DNA of 64,000 nucleotides from the NCBI RefSeq assembly GCF_025136295.1, contig NZ_CP062788.1, positions 1,054,001-1,118,000 on the forward strand. Reading direction: 5' to 3'. Below the pieces are notes generated by a model. That model was given only the letters and a program-made list of their open reading frames with translations. It did not search any database and was not told the origin of the DNA. Position numbers and translations under genes: made by a program. Position 1 is the first letter of the stretch; each line of letters opens with the position of its first letter. Of this stretch, positions 37-52,498 are shown piece after piece. The stretch comes from Aestuariispira ectoiniformans. GTDB taxonomy: Bacteria; Pseudomonadota; Alphaproteobacteria; UBA8366; Aestuariispiraceae.

Positions 37-780
37 TCATACGCCGGACTTGCCGCCCCAGATCATCACATGCAATTGCGGCAATACGGTCGCGTTGAAC
101 CAGCGATCCTCGACGACCTTGTCGACCAGCCAGCGCATCCGGTCCATGATGCCCGCCATGTCGGGGTCCTGATCCGCATTCACGCCCCACCCCAGATGGG
201 GCGTGTGGTTGCAGGGCTGCAGATAGAGCGGCAGGTCGGGATAACGTGCGCCAACCTGTTTGGCATAGGCGTAATCCGCGTCGTCAAAGATCACGATCTT
301 CATGGACACACGGGTGTCGGGCCCGGCTGCTGCCACGCTGGCGTCCAGCTTGTCCCAATCCGTTTCCATATAGCTGGACGGCGGTTTGGGGCTGAGCGTC
401 AAAACGTCGAGATCGGCAAACCACGGACGATGAATGGAGCCCTGTGTCTCAATGGCAAAGCGATAGCCCTTGGCCTTGCCCAAAGTGATCAGATCGCCCA
501 GCGGCGGGATCGCCGGATTGCCGCCGGACAGCGTCACCATCAGCGGCTCGCCGCCGGACAGTTTTTCGATCTCCGCAAAAATCTCTTCCGCTGTCATGGA
601 CTGCCAGTCGAAACGATAACGTGAACCTACGGCATAGGGCGTGTCGCACCAGTCGCAGCGATAATCGCATCCCGCCGTGCGCACGAAGACTGTCGGTTGG
701 CCGATCAGGGCGCCCTCGCCCTGGATGGTCGGGCCGAAAATCTCGCTGATGCGGATTTTTGGGATGCGCTTGGTCGTCAT
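37..780 (-). CDS. queE: 7-carboxy-7-deazaguanine synthase QueE
   Basis: Radical SAM enzyme that contracts 6-carboxytetrahydropterin to 7-carboxy-7-deazaguanine in the queuosine/preQ0 pathway. The 247-residue product has an N-terminal substrate-binding stretch ([10 protein letters not shown], about residues 14-23) and a CX3CX2C cluster motif at C38, C42 and C45, which is the usual arrangement for radical SAM enzymes. A longer in-frame reading begins upstream at 855, but the ATG at 780 overlaps the queD stop as ATGA and gives the family's normal N-terminus. It is the last gene of queC-queD-queE, all translationally coupled, and is presumably controlled by the preQ1-type leader ahead of queC. 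Confidence 0.95.
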
Positions 781-1133
781 GGACGATACTCCGCCCAGGT
801 CTTGGGCGTCTCGCTGATCCGCACGGCGCTGGTTTCCGGCCATATGGCCTTGCACCAGTCGTAGAGATGTTTCGCCATCAGTTCTGCCGTGACCTGGTCG
901 TCACCCAGAACGTCGTTCAGATGGCGATGGTCCAGCTCGTCATCAATATAGGACTTGAGCGGGCCTAGTTCACGATAGTCCCGCACAAAGCCCACGTGGT
1001 TCAGCGCTTCCGATTCCAGTTCCACCACGACTATATAGTTATGGCCGTGCAGGCGTGCACAGGGGTGATCCTCCGGCAATCCCTTGAGCTGGTGGGATGC
1101 GGAGAAGTGAAATTCCTTTGATATGCGGAACAT
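777..1133 (-). CDS. queD: 6-carboxy-5,6,7,8-tetrahydropterin synthase QueD
   Basis: Converts 7,8-dihydroneopterin triphosphate to 6-carboxytetrahydropterin, the step before QueE. The 118-residue protein has the PTPS-fold zinc ligands H14, H29 and H31 (HGHNY motif) and a candidate catalytic cysteine C25, and it has the usual size of short bacterial QueD. Its start overlaps the queC stop as TAATG, and its stop overlaps the queE start as ATGA, so the three genes form one translationally coupled unit. No abnormal residues were noticed. Confidence 0.95.
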
Positions 1134-1843
1134 TACCCTAGTCCATGTTCCGTGGCGCGCGCCACTGCTGCCTGCCAGTAATCCGGGTCGGCATAGACGG
1201 TCGGGTCTTCGACACCGGCCAGATGGAAGGCCTCCCGCCGTTCCACGCAGGTGCCGCAGCGCCCGCAGTGATGCTCCCCGCCCTTGTAGCAGGACCAGGT
1301 CTCTGCGAAGGGTACGTTATGCTTCGCGCCTTCGGTCACGATATCCGCCTTTGGGATCGTCACGAATGGCGTGTAGAGCTTCACATCCGCATAGCCGTCC
1401 AGCGCCTGACGCTGCATGGCCTCAAAGCTTTCGGTGAAGGCCGGGCGGCAGTCCGGATAGATGAAATGGTCTCCGCCATGGACGGCGGCGGCCACGGCGT
1501 CGGCCTGCTGGGCCGCGGCAATACCAAAGGCCACCGCCAGCATGATTGCATTGCGGTTAGGCACCACAGTGATCTTCATATTCTCTTCGGCATAATGGCC
1601 GTCGGGAACGTCCACGTCATCGGTGAGTGCCGAACCACTTAGCAAAGCGCCGACAGCACGCAGATCGACCAGGTCATGGGGCACACTCAAATTTTCCGCA
1701 GCAAGGCGGGCGTAATCCACTTCCTTCTTGTGGCGTTGGCCGTAATCGAAAGAGACGAGACGGGTCAATTCCGCCTCATGGGCCACTTTATAGGCCAAGG
1801 TGACGGAATCCAGTCCGCCGGAACAGATAACAATCGTTTTCAT
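1133..1843 (-). CDS. queC: 7-cyano-7-deazaguanine (preQ0) synthase QueC
   Basis: ATP-dependent enzyme that turns 7-carboxy-7-deazaguanine into preQ0. The 236-residue protein begins with a PP-loop (SGGLDS, residues 8-13) and has four zinc-ligand cysteines near the C-terminus (C185, C193, C196, C199), both diagnostic for QueC. It is the first gene of the queCDE operon. The Shine-Dalgarno AAGGA sits six bases before the ATG and lies at the 3' end of a preQ1-I-like aptamer, so translation of the operon is expected to fall when preQ1 or preQ0 is plentiful. Confidence 0.96.
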   Translation of the reverse strand: MKTIVICSGGLDSVTLAYKVAHEAELTRLVSFDYGQRHKKEVDYARLAAENLSVPHDLVDLRAVGALLSGSALTDDVDVPDGHYAEENMKITVVPNRNAIMLAVAFGIAAAQQADAVAAAVHGGDHFIYPDCRPAFTESFEAMQRQALDGYADVKLYTPFVTIPKADIVTEGAKHNVPFAETWSCYKGGEHHCGRCGTCVERREAFHLAGVEDPTVYADPDYWQAAVARATEHGLG

Positions 1844-1847
1844 TACA

Positions 1848-1882
1848 CGTCCTTGTTTTAACCGGGTAGGCTGCGACCGGGG
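1848..1882 (-). promoter_or_regulatory. preQ1-I-type riboswitch in queC leader
   Basis: On the minus strand the leader shows a short P1 stem (CCGG pairing with CCGG), a loop starting TCGCAG, and the A-rich tail TTAAAACAAGGA whose end is the queC Shine-Dalgarno. The loop start and tail closely resemble my recollection of the class I preQ1 aptamer of Thermoanaerobacter tengcongensis, including the overlap of tail and ribosome site. Ligand binding would close the pseudoknot and hide the ribosome site. The stem is only four pairs, so a covariance-model test is still needed. Confidence 0.75.
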
Positions 1883-1942
1883 TCCGTTGATCCGGACCAG
1901 TGACGGGGGCTATATCAGCTTTTTCTGGGAAAGGAAAGTTTT

Positions 1943-2728
1943 CTATCGGATTGCCGGTCGATCGACATATTGAGCGATAATCCGGTCAAAGCTGCCGTCT
2001 TCTGCCATTGCCATCAGGGCGTTTTCCAAAGTTTGCCGCTTGTCCTGCAATGCGGATTTCCGGGATACCGTAATATAGGAAATCTTGCCCGGCGCCATGA
2101 AGCTCGCCTTCTTGCGTACAAGCCGGTTGAGACGCAGCAGATAATCCCCCAGCAGTTCCGGGGCGATGACTGCGGCGTTTGCGCGTCCTTTGAGCGCCTT
2201 CAGTGCGGTGCGATAGTCGTTGAAAAAGTATTTCTGGATGCGTTTGTCCGTGTCGAAGGGATCGAAATATTTCGCGGCGTTCAACACAAAGACCCAGCGG
2301 TCCAGCAGGTCGTCGTATGTCGTGATATCCGGGGCATTCGGGAGTATATAGAACGCCTTTGTCTCCTCTGGCAGTTCCGCCATCAGATAGGTCATATAGG
2401 CCTCGCGTTCCGGGGTTCTGTTCGGGCCCAGCATGATATCCGCCCGGCCGATCTCCATCAGTTTCAGGGCCCTGGCAAAGGGAACTTCGACGAATTTGAT
2501 CGGCATCTGCGCCCGTGAGGCGGCTTCTTTTATGATGTCGATATAGATGCCGGCATAGATCGTTTTGCCCGCAGAACTTTCTATGATGCGATAGGGAGGC
2601 GCGGAATTTACAACGATTTTATAAGGTTGTGCCGCGTCCTGCGCGCAGGCGGTATATGCCCACAAGAGGGCAGTGGCAGCAAAAGCTGCGGAAAATGAGA
2701 CAAATCGGATTGCTGCCTGCAAATTCAT
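1943..2728 (-). CDS. Orphan periplasmic solute-binding protein (SBP_bac_3 family)
   Basis: A 261-residue secreted protein with a Sec signal peptide (cleavage likely after ...TACA, about residue 29), followed by a two-lobed amino-acid-type binding domain. The motif APPYRIIESSAG and the later segment GRADIMLGPNRTPER are typical of the family. No permease or ATPase gene is adjacent; neighbours are queC (divergent function) and moaB. The ligand cannot be named. It is one of four such orphan proteins in the window, which suggests periplasmic sensing or sharing of a distant transporter rather than a dedicated ABC system. Confidence 0.8.
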   Translation of the reverse strand: MNLQAAIRFVSFSAAFAATALLWAYTACAQDAAQPYKIVVNSAPPYRIIESSAGKTIYAGIYIDIIKEAASRAQMPIKFVEVPFARALKLMEIGRADIMLGPNRTPEREAYMTYLMAELPEETKAFYILPNAPDITTYDDLLDRWVFVLNAAKYFDPFDTDKRIQKYFFNDYRTALKALKGRANAAVIAPELLGDYLLRLNRLVRKKASFMAPGKISYITVSRKSALQDKRQTLENALMAMAEDGSFDRIIAQYVDRPAIR

Positions 2729-2789
2729 AAGTGCAGCATATCAGGCATAGGTAGAAATTTCTGTAACAAACTACTGGGTTTGCTAATTT

Positions 2790-3320
2790 CTATTTTTCCA
2801 GCAGGCGTGGCATCAGTTCCACGAAATTGCAGGGGCGGTGACGGAAGTCCAATTGGCTGCGCAGGATTTCGTCCCAGCCGTCTTTGCAGGCCCCGGTGCT
2901 GCCGGGCAGCGCGAAGAGATAGGTGCCATTGGCGACACCGGCAGTGGCGCGGCTCTGAATGGTGGAGGTGCCGATCTTCGGCAGGCTGATCCAGCGGAAC
3001 ATTTCGCCAAAGCCCGGGATTTCCTTTTCGCAGACCTGGGTGAAGGCTTCCGGCGTGACGTCGCGCCCGGTGACCCCGGTGCCGCCTGTGGTGATTACAA
3101 CATCAACGTTCGGGTCGGCGATCCAGTCCTTCAGGATTGCCGTAATTTCTGTCGCATCGTCTTTGATGATTTTTCGGTCCGCCAGAATATGGCCGTCCCC
3201 TTCGAGGCGCTGTACCAAGGTATCGCCGGAACGGTCGTCATCAAAGGTTCTGGTGTCGGACACCGTGAGGACTGCAATCCGGACCGGCTTGAAGGGGCGG
3301 GTTTCATCTATGGGCATCAT
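2790..3320 (-). CDS. moaB: Molybdenum cofactor biosynthesis protein MoaB
   Basis: MoaB/MogA-family protein that acts on molybdopterin, adenylating it ahead of molybdenum insertion. The 176-residue sequence has the family's binding motif TTGGTGVTGRDVTPEA (residues 77-92) and the later LPGSTGACKDGW loop. Its length fits MoaB rather than the fused MoeA type. Two adjacent ATG codons begin the gene (MMPID); either could be used. It lies upstream of an orphan binding protein and downstream of slt on the same strand with short gaps. No other molybdopterin gene is in the window. Confidence 0.88.
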   Translation of the reverse strand: MMPIDETRPFKPVRIAVLTVSDTRTFDDDRSGDTLVQRLEGDGHILADRKIIKDDATEITAILKDWIADPNVDVVITTGGTGVTGRDVTPEAFTQVCEKEIPGFGEMFRWISLPKIGTSTIQSRATAGVANGTYLFALPGSTGACKDGWDEILRSQLDFRHRPCNFVELMPRLLEK

Positions 3321-40787: not shown

Positions 40788-41078
40788 ATGAACTTCAGGC
40801 CTTTGCATGACCGTGTTCTGGTTCGTCGCGTAGAAGAGGACGAGAAAACGGCTGGCGGCATTATTCTTCCGGATACTGCTAAAGAAAAACCGATGCAGGG
40901 CGAAATCATCGCTGCTGGCAACGGCACTCGTGCTGATAGCGGCGAAGTTCTGCCGTTGGATGTCAAAGCTGGCGACAAAGTGCTGTTCGGCAAATGGTCC
41001 GGCACCGAAGTCAAGGTCAACGGCGAAGATCTGTTGATCATGAAAGAAAGCGACATCCTGGGTGTTCTGGAAGGCTAA
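40788..41078 (+). CDS. groES: Co-chaperonin GroES
   Basis: The lid of the GroEL chaperonin. The 96-residue protein begins [28 protein letters not shown], which includes the mobile loop, and ends [17 protein letters not shown]. Preceded by a GAGGAGG ribosome site. First gene of groES-groEL, which is under two CIRCE elements. Confidence 0.97.
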
Positions 41079-41118
41079 TCCAGCTTCCGGTTTACGCTGT
41101 AACTACTGCCTATTCTAA

Positions 41119-42780
<1,662 letters not shown>

Positions 42781-44476: not shown

Positions 44477-44776
44477 ATGTGTTACGTCTTTGCCAGCACC
44501 GATCCGGCATTGTTCGAGAAGACAACGCGATCGCTTCGCATCAGTGGCGTTGTCACCAGTATCTGTCTGGAGGCGAAATTCTGGGACATTCTGGATGAAA
44601 TTGCGGCCTCGCAGGGAATGAGCACTCCGCTTTTTCTCTCGACCCTCTATGATGAGGTTGTGGAACTGCGCGGCGAAGTCGGCAATTTCACCTCGCTCCT
44701 TCGCGTGATCTGTACAACCCATATGTCGAATATGGCGCCCGCGCCCGGTGTGGCCAAGCCGATGGCCGCAGAATAG
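44477..44776 (+). CDS. Ribbon-helix-helix domain protein (RHH_4 type)
   Basis: A 99-residue protein. The TRSLRISGVVTSICLEAKFWDILDEIA segment gives the beta strand and helices of an RHH DNA-binding fold of the type common in alphaproteobacteria. The SLYDEV-like stretch (STLYDEVVELRGEVGNFTSLLRV) continues it. RHH proteins of this group usually bind DNA as dimers; the target is unknown. The gene ends 126 bases before the MCP-like gene, and an FNR-type box lies in that gap. Confidence 0.72.
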   Translation: MCYVFASTDPALFEKTTRSLRISGVVTSICLEAKFWDILDEIAASQGMSTPLFLSTLYDEVVELRGEVGNFTSLLRVICTTHMSNMAPAPGVAKPMAAE

Positions 44777-44825: not shown

Positions 44826-44839
44826 TTGACAAATATCAA
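44826..44839 (+). promoter_or_regulatory. FNR/FixK-type box before the MCP-like and ODP-like genes
   Basis: TTGACAAATATCAA fits TTGAT-N4-ATCAA with one change. Its centre is about 70 bases before the MCP-like start codon, consistent with activation at -41.5 and a short leader. It implies low-oxygen induction of this gene pair. Confidence 0.6.
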
Positions 44840-44902
44840 TGGCCGCAAGGGGGATTGCCCCTAGCTTCCATTCCGGTGACTGCTATTGGAGAGGCAACCG
44901 GT

Positions 44903-45520
44903 ATGGAACTCAATGCTGCGGTGAAACAGGATTTTTACGTCCTGGCGGTGACATTGGCCGCCCGGCTTAATGAAATTCTGCTGGAGGCCCGCAAGATTTC
45001 GTTGGAGGCAATGAACGCCAAGGCTCTGGTTGCCCGTGGCGGCCTGGAAATGCGTACCTTCAAGCCGATTACCGACTATATGTCGTTGTTGGCCAAGGAG
45101 ACCATCGCCGTCGTATCCGACATCAACGAGGCGGCCTTGCATCTGGCGCATCAGTCTTTGCAGGAAATGCGGCTTCGGGATGTGATGCGGCAAATCTCGG
45201 TGCGGTTGCCGGACATTGAGCAGGCCCCTTTCGGACAGTCGGTCCTGCCCAGCCTCGATGCTTTGGAAACGGACGTGCGAAACCAACAGGGGGCACTGGC
45301 CGAAAAGATTGATCATCTGGCGGACTTATTGGGCAGTATTGATCAGAAAATGCGGGCGGCGCGTGTTGTTTCCGCGACGGCACGGATTGAGGCCGCAGTC
45401 TGTGGCGGCAGTTGTGAAAAGCATTTTCTCGACGTTGCTGCCAACCTGGAAACGGCTGCCCGTCTGATACGCACGCGGGTGACGGACTGCCGCAAACAAC
45501 TGCTCACCGCCTCACAATAG
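44903..45520 (+). CDS. Cytosolic MCP-like signalling protein
   Basis: A 205-residue soluble helical protein without signal peptide or membrane segment. Residues about 36-67 align without gaps to the hairpin tip of methyl-accepting chemotaxis proteins: AMNA for ALNA, VAR for AAR, F53, D58 and a following LAKET for LAERT. The glutamates and glycines that contact CheA/CheW are partly replaced. The full MCP bundle is shorter than usual, so it is either a minimal cytosolic receptor or a CheA-binding adaptor. Seven bases before the ODP-like gene and behind an FNR-type box. ATG has GGAGAGG upstream. Confidence 0.65.
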   Translation: MELNAAVKQDFYVLAVTLAARLNEILLEARKISLEAMNAKALVARGGLEMRTFKPITDYMSLLAKETIAVVSDINEAALHLAHQSLQEMRLRDVMRQISVRLPDIEQAPFGQSVLPSLDALETDVRNQQGALAEKIDHLADLLGSIDQKMRAARVVSATARIEAAVCGGSCEKHFLDVAANLETAARLIRTRVTDCRKQLLTASQ

Positions 45521-45527
45521 GAACTGG

Positions 45528-46277
45528 ATGATGAAAGCCGAGGTTATTTATTCGAAGGATGGTTGCCAGTGGCTGGTGTTTGGCAGGGACAGCCATAAAG
45601 CCGACCGTATCATTGATACCAACCAGTATATGGTGAAGGTCGGGAATGAGGCTGTGTTGCTCGACCCCGGCGGGATCGAGATATTTTCGACCATGCTGGC
45701 ATCGGTCGTCAATTATGCCCCCCTTGACCAGATTCGCCATATATTCGCCTCCCACCAGGATCCGGACATTATTTCCTCTCTTGGTCTCTGGGATCGGACC
45801 CTACCGTCCGCCAGTCTCTACGCACCCAGGATTTGGGAGGGGTTCATTCGGCATTACGGTTGTAATTCAATAGATTATGTTGCCTTGCCGGATGAAGGGC
45901 AAAGCCTGAAGGTCGGCGGTCGGGAGTTTGTATTCCTGCCTGCGCATTACCTGCATTCCTCAGGGAATTTTCATTTCTACGACCCAGAGGCACGCCTTCT
46001 GATGAGCGGGGATGTCGGTGCGGCGCTGATGCCTGCGGATGCGCCGATGTATGTGTCCGATTTTGATTCCCATACCGCCCTGATGAAGGGGTTTCACCAA
46101 CGGTGGATGCCCTCGAATGACGCAAAGAATGACTGGATTGCCCGCGTACGTAAACTGGACATCCAGACGCTTGCGCCACAGCACGGCGCGATGTTTCGCG
46201 GCGACGATGTGAAACGTTTTCTCGACTGGTTTGAAGCGCTGGAAGTCGGAATAGGGTCCAGGTCCGCAGCCGCGTAA
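45528..46277 (+). CDS. ODP-like MBL-fold diiron protein
   Basis: A 249-residue metallo-beta-lactamase-fold protein of the flavodiiron type but without a flavodoxin domain. Candidate metal ligands are H76, D78 and D80 (HXDXD), H143, D162 and H219. This is the set seen in flavodiiron proteins and in the Treponema ODP oxygen sensor, which feeds chemotaxis. RIIDTNQYMVKVGNEAVLLDPGG is the usual start of the fold. The paired MCP-like gene upstream suggests it senses O2, iron or a redox signal. A hydrolase role cannot be excluded. Confidence 0.78.
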   Translation: MMKAEVIYSKDGCQWLVFGRDSHKADRIIDTNQYMVKVGNEAVLLDPGGIEIFSTMLASVVNYAPLDQIRHIFASHQDPDIISSLGLWDRTLPSASLYAPRIWEGFIRHYGCNSIDYVALPDEGQSLKVGGREFVFLPAHYLHSSGNFHFYDPEARLLMSGDVGAALMPADAPMYVSDFDSHTALMKGFHQRWMPSNDAKNDWIARVRKLDIQTLAPQHGAMFRGDDVKRFLDWFEALEVGIGSRSAAA

Positions 46278-47329: not shown

Positions 47330-47910
47330 CTTTGCAATTCCCTATTCCAACGCCTTCTGTGGCGATGATGCGATCCATGCCAGGGTTTTTCCCTGTTCGG
47401 CTTTGGGCTTTTTTGTTTATCCCCATGCCGCAATTTATCTAGTTGCGCCCCTTAGTCGGGAAGGGGGATGGTTGTCAATTCGATTCACGTCCTTTTCGTT
47501 ATAATTTTCTGCGCCATGTCGCGAAACTACCATTTCTATGGCGCAAACGAATATATAGCAGCAATATTTTCACCTCTGCGAAATAAAAATTCCCTTAATA
47601 GCGTAGATTTTACCAAAAAAATGTCGCCTAGGAATAACAAGGGCTTTTAAGTGTAATGCCCGGAATTCCGGGTTTTGAGGGCCTAATTCGCAGGAATGGT
47701 GATGTCGGAATGTCGCAGCTTTGTTTATAGCTGTCGCTGGTTCATGGATGTTCTGTTGCAGTTTTTTGTAAACCTGACTGCTAGGATCCGGGCCGAACCT
47801 GCCTTTGGAAAGGTCGCGGATTTATAGGGAATACATCGTGGCGCATCAGGTGCTGCGGTGACTTTTGAGTTTCTTTGACCGGCAACTCTGCAGGCCGGAC
47901 GGGGATGGGC
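47330..47910. promoter_or_regulatory. Long divergent regulatory region between gbdR-like gene and soxB
   Basis: This 581-base AT-richer gap has no supportable gene. It holds four copies of TGTCGC on the plus strand (47517, 47622, 47711, 47732). The last two are 21 bases apart as a direct repeat, the spacing typical of AraC-type sites. It also holds an eight-base inverted repeat TGCGCCAT/ATGGCGCA (47510-47517 and 47538-47545) and the palindrome CCCGGAATTCCGGG at 47659-47672 followed by TTTT. Confidence 0.5.
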
Positions 47911-49158
47911 ATGAACAAATATTCGATCTTCTCGCTCATGCGGAACGCGATGAGCTACCACGAGAAATGGCAAAAGGCCTGGCGCAGCCCGGACCCGAAG
48001 CCGTCTTACGATGTCATTATCGTCGGCGGTGGCGGTCATGGTCTGGCGACCGCCTATTATCTGGCAAAAGAATGCGGCATCACCAATGTTGCCGTGATCG
48101 AGAAGGGGTGGCTTGGCGGCGGTAATACCGGCCGTAACACCACGATTGTACGGTCGAACTATTTGTGGGACGAATCCGCAGGCATTTACGAACATGCAAT
48201 GAAATTGTGGGAAGGCCTGAGCCAGGACCTGAACTACAACGTCATGTTCTCCCAGCGCGGCCTGCTGCATCTGGCCCATAACGTCCACGACCTGCAGGAA
48301 ATCGGTCGTCGCGGCAACGCCATTCACCTCAACGGCATCGACAGCAAGTTCCTGACGCCGGCCCAGGTGAAGGAAATGGTGCCGCTGATGAATATCAACT
48401 GCCGCTATCCGGTCCTGGGCGCGCTGTTGCAGCCGCGCGGCGGTACGGCCCGCCATGATGCTGTTGCCTGGGGCTATGCCCGTGGCGCCGACAACATGGG
48501 TGTGGACATCATCCAGAACTGCGAAGTCACCGGCTTCCGGATCGAAAACGGCAAATGCCTGGGCGTGGAAACCACGCGCGGCTTTATCGGCGCAAAAAAA
48601 CGCGTCGGCGTCGTCACCGCCGGTCATTCCGGGGTGATGGCTGAAATGGCCGGTTTCCGTCTGCCGATCGAAAGCTTCCCGCTGCAGGCGATGGTCTCTG
48701 AGCCGCTGAAGCCCTGCATTGATACGGTGATCATGTCCGGTGCGGTTCACGTTTATATCAGCCAGTCCGACAAGGGCGAATTGGTCGTGGGCGCAGGGTC
48801 TGACAACTTTGTCTCCTATTCCCAGCGCGGCAGCTTTGACATGATCGACCACATCATCACGCCGATGGTGGAGCTGTTCCCCTTCACCTCGCGTCTGCGC
48901 ATGATGCGTCAGTGGGGCGGGATCGTGGATGTGACCGTCGACCGGTCGCCGGTCATCACCAAGACCCCGGTTGAAAACCTGATGTTCAACTGTGGCTGGG
49001 GTACGGGTGGCTTCAAATGCACGCCGGGTTCCGGCAACGTCTTCGCCCACAGCCTGGCGAATGGTGAACTGCACCCGATTGCAGCACCCTTCACCATGGA
49101 ACGTTTCAACAGCGGTGCGCTGGTCGACGAAGGTGCGGCCGCGGCCGTGGCCCACTAA
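47911..49158 (+). CDS. soxB: Heterotetrameric sarcosine oxidase beta subunit
   Basis: Catalytic FAD/FMN subunit that oxidises sarcosine. The 415-residue protein has the FAD motif GGGGHG (39-44) and the HDAVAWG motif (H182), whose histidine carries the covalent flavin in the family. An ATG at 47905 adds two residues, but the family starts at MNKYSIF, so 47911 is preferred. First gene of soxB-soxD-soxA-soxG, downstream of the GbdR-type regulatory region. Confidence 0.95.
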
Positions 49159-49178
49159 GACGCCGGGGAGGATTAGCC

Positions 49179-49487
49179 ATGCTTACGATTAAATGTCCTT
49201 GGTGTGAGGAAGAACGGGATCAGACCGAATTCACCACACATGGTGAGGCCCATATCGCACGCCCGGAAGACCCGAATGCACTGAGTGATGAGGAATGGGG
49301 CGATTACCTGTTCTTCCGCACCAACCCGAAAGGGATGCACCGCGAACGCTGGGTTCACGATCACGGCTGCCGTCGCTGGTTCAATATGCTGCGCCATACG
49401 GCCACCGATATCATCTATGCCACTTACAAACCGGGCGATCCGATTCCGGAACTGCCTGAAGACGTGAAGGACGGGGGCAAGAAATGA
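49179..49487 (+). CDS. soxD: Sarcosine oxidase delta subunit
   Basis: Small zinc-binding subunit. The 102-residue protein has the zinc ligands C6, C9, H59 and C63, matching the known delta-subunit pattern. Overlaps the soxA start as ATGA. Confidence 0.95.
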   Translation: MLTIKCPWCEEERDQTEFTTHGEAHIARPEDPNALSDEEWGDYLFFRTNPKGMHRERWVHDHGCRRWFNMLRHTATDIIYATYKPGDPIPELPEDVKDGGKK

Positions 49488-52400
49488 GCCAACAGAACCG
49501 TTTGAGCACTGGCGGCCGCGTCGACCGCAGCCGGAAAGTGCGCTTTACCTTCGAAGGTAAGTCTTATGAAGGTTTTGCCGGTGATACGCTGGCGTCCGCC
49601 TTGTTGGCGAACAACGTTCACCTGGTAGGCCGCAGCTTCAAATATCACCGCCCGCGCGGTGTGCTGACTGCCGGTTCCGAAGAGCCGAACGCGATTGTAC
49701 AGCTTGGTACCGGTGCGCGCACGGAGCCCAATACCCGTGCCCCGATGATCGAGCTTTACGACGGTCTGAACGCCAACCCGCAGAACTGCTGGCCGTCGGT
49801 CAACAGTGACATTGGCGAGATCAACAACAAGCTGTCCCGTTTCTTCCCGGCAGGCTTCTACTACAAGACATTCATGTGGCCGAAATCCATGTGGATGAAA
49901 TACGAGGAAGTCATCCGTCATTCCGCCGGTATGGGGGTTGCCCCGACCGAGGAAGACCCGGATAGCTATGCGACTAAGCATGTTCACTGCGACGTTCTGG
50001 TCGCGGGCGGTGGCCCGGCTGGCCTGGCGGCGGCTCTCGCTGCCGGTCGTTCCGGTGCCCGTGTCATCATTGCCGATGAGCATGGCGAATTTGGCGGGTC
50101 CCTTTTGGGTGATGCCGATGCCACCATCGACGGCAAACCGGCGATGGAATGGGTTGCGTCGGCTGTTGAAGAGCTGAAGGCGATGGAAGAAGTCACGGTT
50201 CTGCCGCGCACCACCGTCACGGCCTATTACGACCACAACTTCCTGACTGCCCTGGAACGTGTCACCGACCATCTGGGCCCGCAGGACAATACCGATATCC
50301 CGCGTCAGCGCTTCTGGCAGATCCGTGCCAAGGAAGTCGTCATCGCACAGGGTTCGGTCGAACGTCCGATGCTGTTCGGCGACAACGACCGTCCGGGTGT
50401 GATGCTGGCCAGTGCCGTCCGCACCTATATCAACCGTTTCGGCGTGCTGCCGGGCCGTGAAGTTGTTGTCTTCACCAACAATGACAGCGCCTATCGCACG
50501 GCGATTGACGCGGTGGCGGCCGGTGCAACTGTCCACGTGGTCGATACCCGCAAGGGGCCGAAAGGCGCGCTTGTCGAAAAGGCCCGCTCCCTGGGCGTGG
50601 ACGTTCACGACAATTGCGGCGTCATCGGCACCTGCGGCAAAAAGAAAGTGACTGGCGTGGACGTCATGGAACTGAACGAGGCCGGTGACGGCGTCGTTGG
50701 CTCCAGCTTCCACCTGAGCGCGGATATTGTTGCGATGTCCAGCGGCTGGACGCCGATGGTCAGCCTGTACAGCCAGGCGCGCGGCAAGCTGCGTTATGAC
50801 GAAGAGCTTTCCACCTTCCTGCCCGATCACTGTCAGTGGGCCAACCACAATGTCGGGGCCTGCAACGGTGACTTCACGCTGGAAGGCGCACTGTCCCAGG
50901 GCTTTGAAGCCGGTGCCAAATCCGCCAAGAATTGCGGTTTCGGCGACGGTGCCGCCCCGGCAACGCCGAAGGCACCGCAGGAAGCGGAAGAGCCGCTGCG
51001 CGTGCTGTGGTATATCCCGTCGGATAAACCGCTGGGCCGCAAGCGCAAGCATTTCCACGAGTTCCAGAATGATTCCACCGTGGCCGATATTCATATCGCC
51101 GCGCGGGAAGGTTTCATCTCCGTGGAGCATCTGAAACGTTACACGACCACCGGCATGGGCACCGACCAGGGCAAGACGTCCAACGTCAACGCCATCGGCA
51201 TCATGTCCGGCATTCGCCAGATCGCGCCGAATGCGGTGGGCACCACCACCTTCCGTCCGCCTTATACCCCGCTGACCTTCGGGGCGGCGACCGGCCATGG
51301 CGTGAAGGAATTGTTCCTGCAGAAGCGTAAATCGCCGATGCATCCGGCCCATGAGGCCCATGGTGCGGTCTATGAGGATGTGGGGGACTGGAAACGTCCG
51401 CGCTACTTCCCGAAAGATGGTGAAGACATGCACGCGGCTGTGCAGCGTGAATGCAAGCAGGTTCGTGAAACCGTCGGCATGCTCGACGCTACCACGCTTG
51501 GCAAGATCGATATTCAGGGGCCAGATGCGGCCAAATTCCTGAATATGATCTATACCAATGCCTGGCTGAAACTGGGTGTCGGCAAGGCCCGTTACGGCCT
51601 GATGTGTAATGAACACGGTATGGTCTTCGACGATGGTGTGACCACGCGTCTGGGCGAAAACCACTTCCACATGACCACGACCACCGGCGGTGCCGGGCGT
51701 GTGGCCAACTGGCTGGAGGAATGGCTGCAGACCGAATGGCCGGAAATGGAGGTCTATTGTACCTCTGTGACCGAACAATGGGCGGTGATGGGCCTGAACG
51801 GTCCGATGTCCCGCGATCTGCTGTCGGAACTGTGCGACGACATTGACCTGAGCGGCGAGAGCTTCAAGTTCATGGAAATGCGCGAAGGTCACGTGGCCGG
51901 TGTTCCGGCCCGTGTCTACCGGATCAGCTTCACCGGCGAACTGGCGTTCGAGATCAACGTGCCGGCCCGTTATGGCCTGCATGTCTGGAACGCGCTGATC
52001 GAGGCCGGTAAGAAATACGACCTGGTTCTGTATGGTACCGAATCCATGCACGTGCTGCGTGCGGAGAAGGGCTTCATCATTGCCGGTCAGGACACGGATG
52101 GTTCCGTGACCCCGATGGACCTGGACATGAGCTGGATCGTTGGCAAGAACAAGGAAGACTTCCTGGGCCGCCGTTCCTTCGCCCGTTCCGATACCTCGCG
52201 CGAAGGCCGCAAGCAGATGGTCGGTATCCTGACCGAAGACCCGAATGTGGTCCTGCCGGAAGGCGCACATGTGGTTAAGGAACTGAAGGATAAGCCGCCG
52301 ATGGAGATGCTCGGTCATATCTCCTCCAGTTATATGAGCCCGAACTGTGGCCGGTCCATCGCAATGGGCCTGATCAAGGACGGTTTCAAACTGAAGGGGC

Positions 52401-52498
52401 AGAGCTTCTATGTGCCGTTGATTGATGGCGCGACCCATAAGGTAACCATTACCGATCCGATTTTCTTCGATAAGGAAGGGGTACGGTCCCGTGGCTAA
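49484..52498 (+). CDS. soxA: Sarcosine oxidase alpha subunit
   Basis: Large subunit, 1004 residues. The N-terminal part is a ferredoxin-like fold (FTFEGKSYEGFAGDTLASALLAN). The middle is a dinucleotide-binding domain with GGGPAG (175-180). The C-terminal third is a folate-binding GcvT-like domain, where the methyl carbon is trapped as methylene-THF. This is the full length for tetrameric enzymes. Links sarcosine breakdown to the same folate pool used by GcvT. Confidence 0.96.
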   Translation: MSQQNRLSTGGRVDRSRKVRFTFEGKSYEGFAGDTLASALLANNVHLVGRSFKYHRPRGVLTAGSEEPNAIVQLGTGARTEPNTRAPMIELYDGLNANPQNCWPSVNSDIGEINNKLSRFFPAGFYYKTFMWPKSMWMKYEEVIRHSAGMGVAPTEEDPDSYATKHVHCDVLVAGGGPAGLAAALAAGRSGARVIIADEHGEFGGSLLGDADATIDGKPAMEWVASAVEELKAMEEVTVLPRTTVTAYYDHNFLTALERVTDHLGPQDNTDIPRQRFWQIRAKEVVIAQGSVERPMLFGDNDRPGVMLASAVRTYINRFGVLPGREVVVFTNNDSAYRTAIDAVAAGATVHVVDTRKGPKGALVEKARSLGVDVHDNCGVIGTCGKKKVTGVDVMELNEAGDGVVGSSFHLSADIVAMSSGWTPMVSLYSQARGKLRYDEELSTFLPDHCQWANHNVGACNGDFTLEGALSQGFEAGAKSAKNCGFGDGAAPATPKAPQEAEEPLRVLWYIPSDKPLGRKRKHFHEFQNDSTVADIHIAAREGFISVEHLKRYTTTGMGTDQGKTSNVNAIGIMSGIRQIAPNAVGTTTFRPPYTPLTFGAATGHGVKELFLQKRKSPMHPAHEAHGAVYEDVGDWKRPRYFPKDGEDMHAAVQRECKQVRETVGMLDATTLGKIDIQGPDAAKFLNMIYTNAWLKLGVGKARYGLMCNEHGMVFDDGVTTRLGENHFHMTTTTGGAGRVANWLEEWLQTEWPEMEVYCTSVTEQWAVMGLNGPMSRDLLSELCDDIDLSGESFKFMEMREGHVAGVPARVYRISFTGELAFEINVPARYGLHVWNALIEAGKKYDLVLYGTESMHVLRAEKGFIIAGQDTDGSVTPMDLDMSWIVGKNKEDFLGRRSFARSDTSREGRKQMVGILTEDPNVVLPEGAHVVKELKDKPPMEMLGHISSSYMSPNCGRSIAMGLIKDGFKLKGQSFYVPLIDGATHKVTITDPIFFDKEGVRSRG

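Follow-up and report, generated by a model that had tools for sequence, protein, structure and literature searches.

In a stretch of 64,000 nucleotides from the genome of Aestuariispira ectoiniformans (hereafter the window; contig NZ_CP062788.1, positions 1,054,001 to 1,118,000 of the forward strand), two open reading frames (ORFs) on the same strand, which encode proteins of 205 and 249 amino acids (aa) and are separated by 7 bases, form a conserved unit, though one that is patchy among genomes. The host genome is a single contig of 4.36 Mb. Judged by its sequence, the second protein is a member of the oxygen-binding di-iron protein (ODP) family, while the first appears to derive from the signalling tip of methyl-accepting chemotaxis proteins (MCPs) and is here called the mini-receptor. 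We consider it rather likely that the two genes make up an oxygen- or iron-sensing unit that feeds a chemosensory (CheA) pathway. An initial annotation, made from the DNA letters, had proposed an add-on receptor with an ODP-like sensor; the linkage of the two genes, the MCP-like family profile and the che clusters described below support this proposal, while the signalling role is what we infer. The coordinates, lengths and 7-base spacing that it gave for the two ORFs were reproduced.

The oxygen-binding di-iron protein and its conserved partner

The 249-aa protein matched the Pfam family ODP (PF19583) with an E-value of 2e-71 (240.3 bits against a cut-off of 27.2), and among solved structures the ODPs 6qrq (E=6.7e-65) and 6qnm (E=1.8e-53) came far ahead of flavodiiron-type structures, which trailed at 1e-6 or weaker. 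These results bear out the ODP-like, flavodiiron-type metallo-β-lactamase (MBL) identity put forward in the initial annotation, as well as its six metal ligands: H76, D78, D80, H143, D162 and H219 were invariant across the eight rows of the ODP alignment A1, one of which (row L012) is frameshifted near its end. The window ODP and both solved ODPs have in common an APQHG motif, in which a Gln stands before the last His (HQDPD ... APQHG), and this motif was absent in the alignment with the flavodiiron protein 2q9u. PMC7785958 describes a Gln at motif 5 of the Thermotoga ODP as an unusual ligand; we infer that this residue corresponds to the Gln of APQHG here.

A flavodoxin or other redox domain was not found in the 249-aa protein, for which Pfam at E≤1 gave only ODP and Lactamase_B, in agreement with the earlier statement that a flavodoxin domain is missing. 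The ODP is likely an iron-based oxygen sensor. Alternatively, it could be an enzyme (an O2 reductase or a hydrolase), with the helical partner serving as a scaffold or stability factor that has no signalling role, as might be suspected from the MBL fold and metal ligands that ODPs and flavodiiron enzymes have in common and from the more distant ODP-family proteins that lack a partner. However, the absence of any redox domain, the apparently MCP-derived partner, its placement in che clusters and the fusion of another ODP to a GGDEF signalling domain make this alternative very improbable.

An ODP-alignment scan of 84,980 species genomes confirmed at least 559 relatives, and the best 80 loci were analysed, which are the ODPs nearest to the window query and thus carry a selection bias. 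A small receptor gene was found directly upstream of the ODP gene and on the same strand in 79 of the 80 loci, the exception having just 218 bases upstream, with receptor-ODP gaps of -101 to 69 bases between the mechanically called ORFs. The pair is hence conserved together in these relatives, a point that the initial annotation had put forward for checking. When 385 genomes were drawn evenly from the class, 20 had an ODP-family match and all seven ODPs of stand-alone length had a receptor partner (window included, one pair broken), a count which leaves out twelve PF19583 matches in frames of 373-429 aa and one fusion in a 626-aa frame; a second ODP fusion has 611 aa. When a draw of the phylum was searched starting from the receptor, 5/5 full-length receptors adjoined an ODP gene (window included). 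The pair is also present in G003, a member of the window's family, and in two plasmid records (Pseudoalteromonas xiamenensis and Shewanella aestuarii), where both small proteins match the receptor family profile A3 introduced below; their genes are annotated as 'chemotaxis protein' or 'hypothetical protein', and those of the ODPs as 'MBL fold metallo-hydrolase'. According to the record titles, the hosts of the pair include methanotrophs and many marine Gammaproteobacteria.

Some loci depart from this arrangement. Locus L012 (G383, about 1341-3087, minus strand) holds a degraded pair with the receptor in two adjoining pieces and the ODP split between frames, which may be a sequencing error or a pseudogene. 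Fused ODPs were seen in L013 (G189, 358-2211, minus strand), with a GGDEF domain, and in L005 (G004, 397-2232, minus strand), with a long C-terminal part that has no Pfam match at E≤1e-5; no mini-receptor was found in the short flanks of these two fusions. Among the more distant, stand-alone ODP-type genes without a receptor partner, L181 (from an A. baumannii record), L180 and L182, one lies beside a TonB siderophore receptor and one beside a GGDEF gene.

Ancestry and modelled fold of the mini-receptor

The MCP relationship of the 205-aa protein was detected because a family profile was used; single-sequence searches gave nothing MCP-like. The family alignment A3 consists of 63 rows, namely the window protein and 62 relatives; from the 80 loci, four were excluded for want of a full-length receptor row (none in L047, partial in L052, L072 and L087), together with 14 more rows at least 85% identical to a kept row. 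When compared with the PDB, the A3 profile ranked MCPs first, the best match being the soluble Thermotoga receptor Tm14 (3g6b, E=1.8e-9), and further matches included 2ch7, Tsr and the Tm14 tip fragments 3ur1 and 4jpb, the latter solved together with CheA and CheW domains. MCPsignal was matched at E≤0.01 by 35 of the 63 members, and any other single Pfam family by at most 3 (25 of the 33 families listed); judged by these Pfam matches, the receptor lacks sensor modules and presumably membrane modules. In 398 genomes of the phylum, the profile found a match at E≤1e-8 in 43 and full-length family members (E<1e-50) in five, including the window genome, while the remaining matches began at E=1.5e-12 and lay in frames of 341-886 aa (MCP-sized), except for one of 250 aa. 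No relative of the window receptor was found on viral contigs in a single-sequence search.

The ungapped alignment to an MCP tip over about 32 residues, reported in the initial annotation, was recovered as well: the best 32-residue match to 30 MCP tips of the same genome covers residues 36-67 with a score of 36.4, a value reached by 1 of 300 shuffled sequences (mean 16.7, sd 4.9). The MCP ancestry of the first protein, as a very divergent relative of the signalling tip, is supported by the profile. An ordinary MCP has a long hairpin with a methylation region and dimerises into a four-helix bundle. We class the mini-receptor as MCP-derived rather than as a canonical MCP because it has 205 aa, its tip motif lies near residue 46 with only about 45 residues before it, and it is predicted to be a single-chain bundle.

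Both halves of the chain resemble the MCP tip. Aligned with hhalign to the MCP tips of its own genome, the N-terminal half scored 42.1 and the C-terminal half 31.5, and none of 60 heptad-keeping column shuffles reached either value (best 30.1 and 18.2, respectively); the two halves aligned to each other with a score of 25.2 (best of 60 shuffles 19.3). The conserved tip positions are, in Tsr numbering, N381, E385, R388, G390 and F396, and all five are kept in 30/30 own-genome MCPs. Hairpin 1 retains N381 in 63/63, R388 in 57/63, G390 in 62/63 and F396 in 60/63 rows. At the corresponding positions of hairpin 2, as aligned by hhalign, that of E385 is Glu in 60/63 and that of R388 is Arg or Lys in 13/63. 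An ordinary tip has both the acidic and the basic residue, and these meet in receptor trimers. With the Arg kept in hairpin 1 and the Glu in hairpin 2, the two charges of the tip are here divided between the hairpins of a single chain.

Modelling of the 205-aa protein by AlphaFold2 with A3 gave a pLDDT of 92.9 and a pTM of 0.85. Among the structure matches listed for this model, the best were single-chain antiparallel four-helix bundles: 5vju (Z 17.4, 175 residues, 1.9 Å), 8a3k (Z 16.7, 127/127 residues, 1.9 Å) and 1yo7 (Z 13.8, 120/120 residues, 2.3 Å). Z was not trusted alone, because such values are common among helical bundles and the unrelated LRRC8 channels also score high (Z 14.8 at a root-mean-square deviation (rmsd) of 7.3 Å). 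For this reason, and because Foldseek returned no match to the model at E≤0.001, we modelled as a control a 205-residue fragment of an ordinary MCP centred on the tip, with an alignment of 10 rows drawn from the same set of loci. The control formed two long helices broken at the tip and matched long two-helix coiled coils and MCPs, among which Tm14 had the highest Z (14.9, rmsd 8.4 Å) and ranked 14th in the Foldseek list by E-value; it is the weaker model (pTM 0.50), built on a shallower alignment than that of the mini-receptor. The mini-receptor model did not superpose on Tm14 (template modelling (TM) score 0.30, rmsd 34 Å), and a tight turn near residue 46 is predicted because the compact four-helix bundle matches require one. 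Unlike the ordinary MCP fragment of equal length, the mini-receptor is thus modelled as a single-chain four-helix bundle of two short hairpins. The earlier expectation that it folds as an MCP hairpin stood in part: the MCP ancestry by profile and the che-cluster placement agree with it, whereas the model has two short hairpins per chain rather than one long MCP hairpin.

Several observations weigh against the ancestry and fold described here. Taken alone, the 205-aa protein matched no MCP model in Pfam or NCBIfam (in the Pfam scan, MCPsignal was not matched even at E≤1) and nothing in the PDB, and its model had no Foldseek match at E≤0.001, as mentioned above. DSSP assigned an unbroken helix from residue 10 to 100, without a break at hairpin turn 1, and the long two-helix Smc coiled coil 5nnv_D reached a TM score of 0.54 against the model, but at an rmsd of 36.9 Å. 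A coupling analysis of the 63 sequences, which is too shallow and noisy to decide on either hairpin, gave helix 2-helix 3 as the strongest signal (5.0), implausible helix 2-helix 4 lines of up to 4.3, and just 1.6 and 2.2 for hairpins 1 and 2; its top line (i+j = 216) is compatible with a turn near residue 108, a feature of both the single-chain and the long-hairpin model. Furthermore, E385 is kept in 0/63 rows of hairpin 1, and the equivalents of Leu380, Val384, Val398 and Glu402 are mostly changed in the family, though invariant or nearly so in own-genome MCP tips; therefore, the contacts that ordinary receptors make with CheW or within trimers may not form, and it is uncertain whether CheA/CheW would be bound in the usual manner.

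Some of these observations would be expected if the small protein were an ordinary chemoreceptor fragment, that is, a long two-helix hairpin dimer like Tm14, and the four-helix monomer a modelling artefact: the A3 profile aligns best to Tm14, the helix is unbroken, the top coupling line is compatible and the Smc coiled coil is matched. We nevertheless regard this as quite unlikely, since the model fits neither Tm14 nor Smc well but does fit 8a3k, the MCP control of the same length matches long coiled coils and MCPs instead, and the two halves resemble each other as well as the MCP tip.

Chemosensory context and the proposed signalling route

The pair lies inside a che cluster in four loci. In L045, from a Methylobacter metagenome-assembled genome, the order is MCP, STAS, CheR, CheD, CheB, receptor and ODP; the CheB and receptor genes stand 24 bases apart. 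In L033 it is CheB, MCP, STAS, response regulator-SpoIIE (RR-SpoIIE), one further gene, receptor and ODP, with CheA about 12 kb off on the same contig; the clusters in L063 (from Methylotuvimicrobium buryatense 5G; scanned with Pfam in part, the other part by blastp only) and L078 (blastp only) are similar to that of L033 and include CheB and MCP. Across the flanks of the 80 loci, blastp found CheB in 4 and MCP genes in 12. CheA was found in 35/35 genomes searched, 33 of which are distinct pair genomes; this set comprises 27 of the 80 loci (mostly isolates) and 8 others, with L006 and L033 apparently one genome (identical CheA places), and also holds L012 with its broken pair and L005 with its ODP without a mini-receptor. 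In the class draw, CheA was present in 169/385 genomes versus 7/7 pair genomes, for which (169/385)^7 = 0.003 when relatedness is ignored. In the window genome, a single frame of 947 aa matches CheA, another of 394 aa has a CheW domain, and there are 31 MCPsignal matches. Its CheA and CheW-domain matches all lie outside the window, in line with the earlier remark that no cheA or cheW is present here; these are profile matches, and the 64 kb were not checked gene by gene.

An output other than flagellar chemotaxis has also to be considered, in which an MCP-tip protein gated by the ODP would control a pathway of the STAS/SpoIIE partner-switching or of the biofilm type, whether or not CheA takes part. 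A Pfam scan of the neighbouring ORFs (59 of 73 upstream and 65 of 77 downstream, redundant and cut ones being left out) found Response_reg in 9, SpoIIE in 6, HATPase_c_2 in 4 and PilZ in 4 of the 59 upstream neighbours, and Response_reg in 5 and GGDEF in 3 of the 65 downstream. By blastp, RR-SpoIIE-type genes were seen in 14/80 loci for each of two queries (13 shared), some perhaps being receiver-domain matches, and the mixed CheB, MCP, STAS and RR-SpoIIE cluster of L033 (by Pfam), with L063 and L078 similar to it, also fits such an output. However, in most of the 80 loci, and in the window itself, none of these genes was seen beside the pair, every pair genome searched has CheA, and in L045 the pair stands beside CheR-CheD-CheB; we therefore think this alternative unlikely. 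As a separate observation, mixed CheB/MCP/STAS/RR-SpoIIE/HATPase combinations (Pfam or blastp) stand beside the pair in L033, L063, L070, L078 and L092, which makes them chemosensory plus partner-switching clusters.

For a unit that feeds a CheA pathway, the following points are unfavourable: the nearby response-regulator/SpoIIE-type genes (13 to 15 of the 80 loci) could mean a non-flagellar output, the receptor is patchy (2/14 genomes of the window's family and 5/398 of the phylum), and none of the three records examined, out of seven from the plasmid collection with more distant ODPs (35-39% identity), shows a receptor partner, in gene tables that are incomplete.

In the CheA-linked route that we favour, the ODP with its di-iron site would be the sensor and would bind O2 or iron, and the 205-aa partner would be its cognate cytoplasmic receptor. 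The latter may have arisen from an MCP tip trimmed to its protein-interaction end and then duplicated within one chain, and a single molecule would therefore form the four-helix bundle that takes two ordinary receptors. The ODP might dock on the mini-receptor, possibly at the end distal to the tips, while the tips could meet CheA/CheW or neighbouring receptors, so that the kinase activity of the CheA complex would change with the state of the ODP; expression of the window copy may be tuned by an FNR-type regulator. A more specific proposal, for and against which we see the balance as even, is that the ODP receptor in Pseudomonadota may be a natural single-chain pseudo-dimer, in which the MCP tip was duplicated in a 205-aa chain and its Arg and Glu were then divided between the hairpins. 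Such an asymmetric, methylation-free molecule would enter or cap arrays as a monomer, with one ODP as a detachable oxygen or iron head.

Local features, known systems and significance

The features of the locus are collected in Table 1. The FNR-type box TTGACAAATATCAA reported in the initial annotation is exact and is the sole exact TTGAYNNNNRTCAA site in the window, where 0.16 are expected and at least one occurs in 16/100 shuffles. Nine Crp/FNR-type helix-turn-helix matches were found in the genome, and one protein (L169) has the N-terminal motif C-x2-C-x7-C and is FNR-like. A perfect site was present upstream in 4/83 other rows (L035, L037, L038 and L093), 71-102 bases before the approximate start; with a site background of 1.1%, the chance of at least four is about 0.015 (a few rows being duplicates of a locus or genome), a modest excess. 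A conserved FNR regulon for the pair was rejected as a general claim, since just these 4/83 rows have a perfect site. Taken as a pattern match, the box is real but not a conserved feature of the pair.

Table 1 Features of the mini-receptor-ODP locus (window positions)
Feature	Position	Strand	Basis
Ribbon-helix-helix gene, upstream of the pair	44477-44776		PF13467
FNR-type box TTGACAAATATCAA, 63 bases 5' of the first start codon	44826-44839	+	Pattern match
GGAGAGG, probable ribosome-binding site, 8 bases 5' of ATG 44903	44888-44894	+	Sequence inspection
Mini-receptor gene (205 aa), putatively MCP-tip-derived	44903-45520	+	Profile A3 vs PDB, AlphaFold2 model
First MCP-tip-like hairpin turn region, residues 30-68 (N38, R45, G47, F53)	44990-45106	+	hhalign, residue counts
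Second, degenerate MCP-tip-like turn region, residues 155-182 (E163, A164, A179)	45365-45448	+	hhalign, residue counts
ODP gene (249 aa)	45528-46277	+	Pfam PF19583, solved ODPs 6qrq/6qnm, ligand set

Downstream of the pair, Pfam identified an AraC-type regulator on the opposite strand. Further away, GroES/GroEL-like ORFs were noted by eye upstream (window 40788-42780), and genes for a DAO-family oxidoreductase and for a protein of the sarcosine oxidase alpha type lie downstream (window 47875-52498); no link of either group to the pair was seen.

Among known proteins, Thermotoga maritima Tm14 (3g67, 3g6b; tips 4jpb, 3ur1) is, like the window receptor, soluble and sensorless, and is its best profile match. 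Tm14 has one long hairpin per chain, on which the window model does not superpose. According to PMC7666581, there is a genetic coupling in Treponema denticola between the ODP (TDE2498) and TDE2496, an MCP homologue that has neither membrane nor sensor parts and is able to modulate CheA; loss of the ODP alters the order of CheA in arrays, and cryo-electron tomography gave no obvious position for the ODP in the array. This system likewise combines a stand-alone ODP with a sensorless, membrane-free MCP homologue. By description, not by sequence, the window receptor is set apart from TDE2496 in that it has 205 aa and is modelled as two tip-like hairpins bundled within one chain. Operons that combine ODP and MCP genes in either of two orders, as well as fusions of ODPs to signalling domains, have been described before (PMC7319448). 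Because of the Treponema coupling and these operons, the pair is of a kind already known.

A study of single-chain Tsr (PMC4692393) mentions that single-chain MCPs occur naturally in Rhodospirillum centenum and others. These and the engineered Tsr~Tsr have two MCP signalling units per chain, as is proposed here, whereas the family of ODP partners has retained just the tip region, with divergence between the two tips, a comparison made by description. No description of a short single-chain ODP receptor was found in the literature searched on ODPs and on single-chain or minimal chemoreceptors, a weak absence in that the founding ODP paper and most subscription journals lay outside the search. 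The new part would be the build of the receptor, with 205 residues modelled as a single-chain four-helix bundle.

Overall, the pair probably supplies the control of swimming with information on oxygen or iron. For the question of how the oxygen state of an ODP reaches a kinase, a conserved small partner that models as a monomer makes this step tractable by crystallography, binding and kinase assays. If true, the split charges would make it possible to tell apart what each subunit of a receptor dimer contributes. Oxygen positioning should matter for the methanotrophs and marine Gammaproteobacteria that carry the pair.
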